5,097 nucleotides of DNA from Promethearchaeota archaeon (GTDB taxonomy: Archaea; Asgardarchaeota; Lokiarchaeia; Sigynarchaeales; SOKP01): the NCBI GenBank assembly GCA_019894655.1, contig JAGXNZ010000217.1, positions 1 through 5,097 on the forward strand, read 5' to 3'. Of this stretch, positions 1,953 through 3,532 are shown piece after piece; within the stretch, counting starts at the first letter, position 1, and each line of letters starts with the position of its first letter. The position numbers and the translations under genes are program-made. The notes beneath the pieces are model-generated. The model saw nothing but the letters and a program-made list of their open reading frames with translations. It did no database searches and had not been told where the DNA came from.

Positions 1953-3532
1953 ATGGTTTATCAATTAGAAGATGTAAAAGGCATCGGTTCGGAAATGGCT
2001 AAAAAACTAAAATTATCAGGCTTTAAGTCTGTTGAAATTTTAGCTTCTGCTAAGCCAGAGGATATTGTGAAACTAAAAATCAAAGGTATTGGCAAAGCAA
2101 CGGCATTGAAAATTATAAAAAGCGCAGGGTCATTAGTGAAGGAGAAATTATCAGAAGTAGAAACTCCAAAACCTGATGAAATAGAGAAACCTATCAAAAA
2201 AGCAAAAACAACAAAAAAAGCAGAGCCAGAAAAGAGCACTAACCTTAAAGAACTAATAAAAAAACAAGCGGAATGTAATATAGGACTAGTGGGCCATGTA
2301 GATCATGGAATGAATTAGTCGTTTCGACAATTCCTATAAAGACCACGCTAGTCAAAGCCCTTACGGGTGATTGGACGGATAGACACTCTGAAGAACAAGA
2401 GCGGGGAATATCTATTAAATTGGGATATTCTAACGCAACAATTTTATATTGTTCTGAGTGCGACGAATATTTAACCTATTATATGGCAGAGGTTGCTAGA
2501 AAAAAAGGGGAACCTAGATTTAGTTGTTCAAACTGTTCAAAAACCTTAGAATTTAAAAGAAATATATCCTTTGTTGATGCACCAGGTCACGAAATTTTAA
2601 TGGCTACTATGCTGAGCGGGGCTTCTTTAATGAATGGTGCTTGCTTGTTAATTTCAGCTGATGAGGTATGTCCTCAACCACAAACTAGAGAACATTTAGA
2701 AGCGTTGAATATTGCTAGTATTAAGAACATTATTATCATACAAAATAAAATTGACGCTGTATCAAAAGAACAAGCTTTAGAAAATTATAACCAGATTAAA
2801 GAATTTGTGAAGGATACTATTGCTCAAAATGCCCCTATTATTCCAGTTTCTGCGGTATTTGGAGCAAATCTTAATTTAGTAGTTCGAGCGTTTGAAGAAA
2901 TAATTAAGTCGCCCAAAATTCAAGAGGACGAAGATTTTCAATTTTTAGTTGCTCGTTCATTCGATATTAATCGCCCCGGCACACAAATTAACGATTTAAA
3001 CGGCGGTGTAATTGGGGGATCGGTTTTAAAAGGGAAAGTTCAAGTTGGTGAAGAAATTGAGATCAGACCGGGATTACGAGTTAAAAATATATATCAACCA
3101 CTCAGAACCAAAATAGCAAGTATAAGTCAAGGAACTAATTTTTTAGAAGAAGCCAAGCCGGGAGGGTTAATTGGATTAGGAACCATGTTAGATTCTGCTT
3201 TAACAAGGGGTGATTCTCTAATAGGACACCTAGTTGGTAGACCTGACACATTGCCTGAAATAATTTCTGAAGTCGAATTACAAGTAAATCTTTTAGAAAG
3301 GGTGCTAGGCTCGGAGGTACAGATGAAAGTTCAACAGTTAAAACACAACGAAAAGTTATTACTGGTCGTTGGAACGGAAAAAACAGCTGGAACTGTTATA
3401 AAAATCTTAAAAAATTCATATATTCTTAGTTTAGCTCCACCTATTTGTGCTCCAGTGAATTCAATATTTGCGATTTCAAGAATTATAAATCGACGTTATC
3501 GTTTAATAGGTTATGGTAAAGAATTAAGCTAA
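1953..3532 (+). CDS. HhH-fused translation initiation factor 2 subunit gamma, split by a 29-nt BHB intron
   Basis: The gamma subunit of aIF2 is the GTPase that carries initiator Met-tRNA to the small ribosomal subunit, working with alpha and beta subunits. Joining 1953-2310 to 2340-3532 gives 516 aa. Residues 1-66 hold a double helix-hairpin-helix (VKGIGSEMAKKL, then IKGIGKATALKII), like the RadA N-terminal domain; 67-100 is a Lys/Glu/Pro-rich linker. The GTPase follows: P-loop GHVDHGKTT (114-122), switch I RGISIKLGYS with Ser144 where Thr is usual, zinc knuckle Cys157/160/182/185, DAPGHE (199-204), NKID (255-258) and SA (290-291). Domain II starts near 320 (VARSFDINRPGTQ), domain III near 425, ending YRLIGYGKEL. 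Every core motif is intact, so this is not a decayed copy. No start codon lies close before NIGLVGHVDHG, so the HhH extension is genuinely in frame. Ordinary aIF2-gamma is about 410 aa; the excess is this extension. Transcribed alone, converging on the minus-strand genes. Confidence 0.93.
2297..2347 (+). promoter_or_regulatory. Bulge-helix-bulge splicing motif
   Basis: Central 4-bp helix: A2305-U2337, U2306-A2336, G2307-U2335 (wobble), G2308-C2334. It is flanked by 3-nt bulges A2309-A2310-U2311 and A2338-A2339-A2340. The intron helix is GAAUU (2312-2316) with AAUUC (2329-2333), a single bulged A2317, then GUCG (2318-2321) with CGAC (2325-2328), closed by a UUU loop. The exon helix has C2304-G2341, U2303-A2342, an A2302/C2343 mismatch, G2301-C2344, a bulged A2300, then U2299-A2345, G2298-C2346 and U2297-G2347. 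The core therefore matches the canonical 3-4-3 geometry recognised by archaeal tRNA-splicing endonuclease; the exon helix is imperfect. Cleavage after A2310 and A2339 is the known position, between bulge nucleotides two and three. Confidence 0.83.
2311..2339 (+). other. 29-nt BHB intron inside the P-loop codon of aIF2-gamma
   Basis: Upstream the frame reads to VGHVDHG (GGA at 2307-2309), then hits Met-Asn-TAG (stop 2316-2318). Downstream it resumes at KTTLVKALTG in another frame. Removing 29 nt fuses them perfectly; the Lys codon becomes A2310 + A2340 + G2341. Because of shared A residues, removal of 2309-2337, 2310-2338 or 2311-2339 gives the same product; the BHB cleavage rule selects 2311-2339. 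Length is not a multiple of three, it holds a stop codon, and it is far too short for an intein, so RNA splicing is the only economical explanation. Confidence 0.85.

Follow-up and report, generated by a model that had tools for sequence, protein, structure and literature searches.

The gene for the translation factor aIF2-gamma in the Lokiarchaeal DNA described here is interrupted in its P-loop by an insert of 29 nt. We consider it very probable (about 0.93) that this insert is a bulge-helix-bulge (BHB) intron of the pre-mRNA, a prediction made from the sequence, and that its removal restores the P-loop GHVDHGKTT. An earlier sequence-only reading of this DNA dealt with the aIF2-gamma site alone; it holds there, and inserts of the same build are also present in sister GTPase genes, at several conserved sites.

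The Interrupted aIF2-gamma Gene

The window, that is, the whole stretch of 5,097 bases under analysis, is Lokiarchaeal by its nearest relatives: exon 2 of aIF2-gamma matches 31 Lokiarchaeal loci at 69–94% identity, followed by 45 loci of other archaea at 41–51%. The gene occupies 1953–3532 on the plus strand. Its first open reading frame (1953–2318) is closed by an in-frame TAG at 2316–2318, directly 3′ of the GHVDHG codons, and a transcript retaining the intron would yield only a fragment of 121 amino acids. Exon 1 (1953–2310) encodes an N-terminal helix-hairpin-helix domain (PF14520, E = 9.5e-11) and a linker, followed by ECNIGLVGHVDHG and the first nucleotide of the Lys codon. Exon 2 (2340–3532), which is in a different frame from the first open reading frame and remains open to 3532, starts with the AG of the Lys codon and continues with TTLVKAL..., the GTPase domain, domain II and eIF2_C. 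It is identified as aIF2-gamma by NCBIfam (NF003077, E = 1.3e-138), contains the Pfam domains eIF2_C and GTP_EFTU, and matches solved structures with a best E of 1.8e-111. The helix-hairpin-helix region itself lies at 1953–2130, and the N-terminal part of the protein of locus L003 is similar. Beside aIF2-gamma, on the minus strand (19–1470), is a gene for a C25-family peptidase (PF01364, E = 2.5e-49).

Geometry and Folding of the Insert

By the cut rule the predicted intron spans 2311–2339 of the plus strand, at a site that is also interrupted in relatives. Its central helix, assigned by pairing, covariation and helix scoring, is formed by ATGG in exon 1 (2305–2308, within the His-Gly codons) and CTAT in the intron (2334–2337). 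It is flanked by two bulges assigned by helix scoring, AAT (2309–2311) and AAA (2338–2340). The inner part of the intron (2312–2333) is predicted to fold into a hairpin with a GAATT/AATTC stem (2312–2316/2329–2333), a bulged A2317, a GTCG/CGAC stem and a TTT loop. An outer helix with its 5′ strand at 2298–2304 pairs with 2341–2346; it is weak, having a bulged A2302 and one A·C mismatch. The arrangement of a 3-nt bulge, a 4-bp helix and a 3-nt bulge, which had already been recognized from the sequence, scores 4/4 central and 5/5 inner pairs in the window. When the intron letters were shuffled 2000 times with the same alternative joins permitted, the helix score of the window had p = 0.0005.

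Cutting after the second nucleotide of each bulge (2310/2311 and 2339/2340) joins 2310 to 2340 and produces GGA-AAG-ACC-ACG, which restores both GHVDHGKTT and the reading frame. The sequence-only reading was right about the split P-loop and about this rule, but it placed the junction exactly between the Gly and Lys codons, whereas the rule puts it inside the Lys codon (A^AG). The window allows three alternative joins with one identical product; in locus L107 the sole join restoring the Lys codon and the frame is the BHB cut (A^AG).

The predicted stability of the BHB fold varies among the loci. It equals the predicted minimum in L030 and L150, lies within 2.6 kcal/mol of it in L112, L152, L175 and L192, and is 3.9–5.0 kcal/mol above it in L107. 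In the window it is 6.4–6.7 kcal/mol above the minimum, because exon 1 can form a CCAUG/CAUGG hairpin of its own. A long outer helix between the two exons (GACUAG/CUAGUC) in the window fold was dropped, being poorly kept, as judged by eye, in L029–L031.

Several other kinds of insert were considered and rejected. A group I or group II ribozyme intron is at odds with the length of only 29 nt and with the result of an Rfam search, which gave no match in the window at gathering scores. The borders TGAA...ATAA are not the GU...AG of a spliceosomal intron, and an intein would be an open, protein-sized insert, not 29 nt with a stop codon. The crenarchaeal cbf5 intron itself (Desulfurococcales/Sulfolobales) does not apply to a host gene that is aIF2-gamma and whose nearest relatives are Lokiarchaeal.

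The insert might also stay in the mRNA and be skipped by the ribosome. Such translational bypassing is exemplified by gene 60 of phage T4 and requires matching take-off and landing codons. Here ribosomes would leave at the Gly codon and land past the hairpin, and the insert is in fact a hairpin with a stop codon near the take-off codon. However, the codon before AAG in the window is ATA, as opposed to the take-off codon GGA, and in the EF-2 paralogue a take-off GAT would face a landing AAA. Moreover, the helix between exon and intron covaries, a property not needed for bypassing. We regard bypassing as extremely improbable.

The Same Site in Related Genomes

The sequence-only reading proposed a comparison with related aIF2-gamma genes. 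At the 31 Lokiarchaeal loci the P-loop site is interrupted in 11, with the pairing kept, and intact in 20, one of which is L003, which shares 94% identity with the window in exon 2. An aIF2-gamma match (E ≤ 1e-40) was obtained in 214 of 227 Asgard genomes. In 22 of these 214 the P-loop is interrupted (G001, G002, G004–G012, G105, G106, G120, G125, G133, G139, G154, G145 and G085–G087), a count for which flagged genomes were read by letters and unflagged ones were judged from match tables. A flag alone does not amount to an intron, because L120–L138 were flagged and yet have an intact P-loop; of this set of flagged rows only L119 is interrupted. G085–G087 branch apart from the Lokiarchaeal rows in the tree, and the P-loop motif of both G086 and G087 is interrupted twice, at the His codon and at the Lys codon.

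Could the interruption reflect a pseudogene, or an error of sequencing or assembly? Almost every named relative is a metagenome-assembled genome, and G145 (L149 on contig C165, and contig C106) has both an intact aIF2-gamma and, on a small contig, an intron-bearing copy. The intron region of the latter copy is identical to that of G009 (L011); G145 looks like a mixed bin. On the other side, inserts at the same site, diverged yet still pairing, are present in many independent assemblies, which makes an assembly error unlikely; the insert of L031 is on a contig of 498 kb and that of the EF-2 paralogue L178 (G130) on one of 2.27 Mb. No second aIF2-gamma copy was seen in 11 of 11 intron-bearing genomes, where matches with E ≤ 1e-30 fall at a single place, either as one match or as two exon pieces. 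The downstream exon has a dN/dS of 0.08–0.23 in the 13 listed pairs of intron-bearing genes, similar to that of intron-free pairs. Values of about 0.1 argue against pseudogenes, and judging by these ratios the downstream exon is under purifying selection. The sequence-only reading had reckoned with an assembly error and with decay of this gene beside a second, intact copy; neither is what the genomes present, with the likely mixed bin G145 as the exception. A pseudogene or an artifact is thus hardly credible as an explanation, and the reading as a spliced BHB intron is much preferred.

Covariation and Distribution

Covariation was evaluated in 16 aligned inserts of 29 nt, with 30-nt and shifted inserts left out. 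In this set 88.2% of the cells pair, compared with 82.9 ± 0.8% in shuffles; the covariation score is 0.172 vs. 0.097 and was reached by none of 500 shuffles, and double-sided changes number 14 vs. 3.5. The count of further pair types in the 16 inserts is no higher than in shuffles (141/500). The outer helix is weak here as well: 82.3% of its cells are paired in the aligned inserts, and pair 20–64 is unpaired in 9 of the 16 rows. The letters of the central helix also covary across genes, as seen in ATGG/CTAT, ATGG/CCAT, ACGG/CTGT, ACGG/CCGT, CGGT/GCCG, TGGC/GCCA, TCAG/CTGA, GCGC/GCGT and CTTG/CAAG.

A tree was built from 88 exon-2 proteins, reduced to 65 by dropping identical rows; 22 of the 65 are intron rows. 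At least 11 changes of intron state are needed on it, at least nine of which are forced by well-supported branches. The intron label is clustered (none of 500 shuffles was as low), yet the intron rows form a single clade in 0% of 200 bootstrap trees. Because they never form one clade, there is no support for a history with one gain and neither loss nor transfer, and on this tree the distribution of the intron is one of repeated gain, loss or transfer.

Where only one gene of a pair has the intron, synonymous differences are more frequent within 12 codons of its position than at distances of more than 30 codons, as in L003 vs. the window (12/23 near, 50/305 far) and L024 vs. L108 (8/22 near, 18/307 far). 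The excess has p < 0.05 in 11 of 14 pairs with and without the intron, in none of eight pairs in which both have it, and in four of six intron-free pairs; since the intron-free pairs are also positive, it is not specific to the difference in intron. One reading of the excess may be that the flanks were replaced when the intron was gained or lost. The pairs in this test include L003 vs. the window, L001, L002, L004 and L005; L024 vs. L108; and L009 and L012–L014 vs. L010 and L011.

Inserts in Sister Genes and Control Families

A covariance model of the aIF2-gamma insert, R1, was searched over the 227 Asgard genomes. Among the matches listed, frame-breaking or stop-bearing inserts occur at the P-loop Lys codon in four sister gene types: EF-2 (G010, G011), an EF-2 paralogue (G011), EF-1alpha (G138, G140, G142) and aIF5B (G011). 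In G011 four translation GTPase genes are interrupted. The sister genes were named by family searches and by reading the translations, and family searches in 79 chosen genomes matched EF-1alpha in 68, EF-2 in 76 and aIF5B in 72. EF-1alpha has inserts at the Lys codon in G127 and G120, after the P-loop His in G007, just upstream of the P-loop in G132 and at DAPGHAD^F in G129; G085 has a probable insert for which no join was obtained. The EF-2 paralogue has inserts after the P-loop His in G119, G123 and G124, and at QMTDSD^DEEQ in 11 genomes. Inserts in aIF5B were also found in G123 and G084–G087.

An in-frame join was obtained for 58 of the 61 inserts tried; L195, L196 and L205 gave none under the motif used. 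The joined rows are related and do not represent 58 independent events. Their lengths are 26–35 nt, a multiple of three in 25 of the 58. The central helix is complete (4/4) in 48 and has at least three of four pairs in 53; at least four of the first five inner pairs form in 47, and the shuffle p is ≤ 0.01 in 34, where 0.6 would be expected. In 18 rows only one join of the insert length is possible, and 17 of these have a central helix of 4/4 and at least 4/5 inner pairs. Poor fits to the BHB are L116 and L117 (p 0.27–0.32), L198 (p 0.39) and L197 (p 0.36).

Any special targeting of translation GTPases is judged against two control families, VatA and cbf5. VatA, matched in 72 of the 79 genomes, has no internal stop in any row, truncated rows being judged from tables. 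For cbf5, matched in 77 of the 79, the Lokiarchaeal rows have no internal stop; internal stops occur only in G084–G087 (L201–L204), which belong to another Asgard lineage and in which the gene is interrupted at GHAGTLEP^KVTGVLP. As strict BHB motifs the latter inserts have a central helix of 2/4 and were not counted as confirmed. In VatA of G010, G111, G125 and G155 the match breaks in two around profile position 240 within a single open frame of about 1150–1175 amino acids, which is intein-like. Of 45 non-Asgard archaeal genomes searched with R1 under strict filters that may lose weak matches, 41 were matched, at 56–60 nt, and there was one weak match of 70 nt; none was of intron length.

Splicing Enzymes and a Possible Mechanism

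Enzymes for BHB splicing were searched in 22 relatives, namely 21 intron-bearing genomes and the intron-free G003. The splicing endonuclease family (PF01974) is present in all 22, with two matches in 18 and a single match in G012, G085, G086 and G106; RtcB is present in 20, with no match in G010 or G085. In both cases incompleteness of the metagenome-assembled genomes may account for what is missing. Among endonuclease proteins read from four genomes, the alpha-like ones (3/3) retain Tyr, His and Lys at the positions that we take to be catalytic, and the beta-like ones (3/3) are without the His. By these residues, the endonuclease of these genomes is of the hetero-oligomeric (alpha + beta) type. 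The accessible text of PMC2738675 ties this type to splicing of the cbf5 pre-mRNA.

In the proposed mechanism the alpha + beta tRNA-splicing endonuclease would cut the pre-mRNA at both bulges and RtcB would rejoin the exons to restore the P-loop, the intron ending up circular or being discarded. Cutting might instead not be followed by joining, serving endonuclease-controlled destruction of the mRNA or a split protein. According to PMC7714728, the endonuclease cleaves a BHB located in a 5′ UTR of Haloferax, and taking out this BHB seems to matter for expression. Here, however, the cut rule restores an intact protein, the downstream exon is under selection and RtcB is present in 20 of the 22 relatives; a P-loop divided between two peptides would probably not function. 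Cutting without joining is very unlikely, if a shade less so than bypassing or a pseudogene. If cutting and joining take place as proposed, the synthesis of translation factors would depend on tRNA-splicing enzymes.

Because the exon contributes one half of the recognition helix, the BHB of such an intron would survive only at positions where an invariant motif fixes the exon letters, and the intron could be lost only by letter-exact deletion or by replacement. The GTPase motifs GHxDHGK and DAPGH and the stretch of switch I would fit this requirement. A broader proposal, which we put forward tentatively and think somewhat less likely to be right than wrong, is that the inserts are very small mRNA introns of the BHB type and form a mobile class. 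They would home to G1, switch I and G3 of translation GTPases (aIF2-gamma, EF-1alpha, EF-2 and its paralogue, and aIF5B) and convert the flanks while moving, with GTPase synthesis gated by the tRNA-splicing endonuclease and ligase.

Relation to Known Introns and Biological Meaning

Inteins in P-loop proteins persist at invariant motifs. The present inserts likewise occupy invariant motifs, but inteins are removed as protein, whereas the insert here is 29 nt with a stop codon. An intron of the crenarchaeal cbf5 pre-mRNA was reportedly described by Watanabe in 2002. This intron is treated in the accessible text of Yokobori 2009 (PMC2738675), and the inserts reported here differ from it in gene, clade and site, and in affecting several paralogous translation GTPases at several conserved sites. 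BHB introns of tRNA genes are abundant in some Asgard genomes, as stated in PMC11291895; archaeal tRNA introns share the motif, and presumably the enzymes, with the present inserts, but here the host is an mRNA and the joined exons restore a reading frame. The 5′-UTR BHB of Haloferax HVO_1309 makes an mRNA a substrate of the splicing endonuclease (PMC7714728, accessible text), as predicted here; it lies outside the coding region, in contrast to the inserts here, which lie inside. Besides its own 5′-UTR case, the available text of that 2020 paper gives one reported archaeal mRNA BHB intron, that of crenarchaeal cbf5. The sequence-only reading called archaeal mRNA introns of this kind rare, with cbf5 as the classic case. 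The accessible texts of PMC13149111 and PMC12397907 do not mention Asgard mRNA introns. The literature searched, in which subscription papers and preprints are thinly covered and some sources are available in part, does not report BHB introns in coding genes of Asgard archaea or recurrent colonization of translation-GTPase motifs. The kind of intron is known from cbf5, and the hosts, sites and recurrence are new relative to the literature searched.

The predicted BHB introns in Asgard translation genes number some fifty, and among known prokaryotes the Asgard archaea are the closest relatives of eukaryotes. Plain calling of open reading frames truncates such genes, that of the window included. 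With these inserts two questions become testable: what makes introns settle in invariant codons, and by what route they could spread when neither a spliceosome nor a homing nuclease is at work. If the inserts are spliced, the production of several translation GTPases would require RNA splicing, carried out by enzymes related to those that splice tRNA in eukaryotes.
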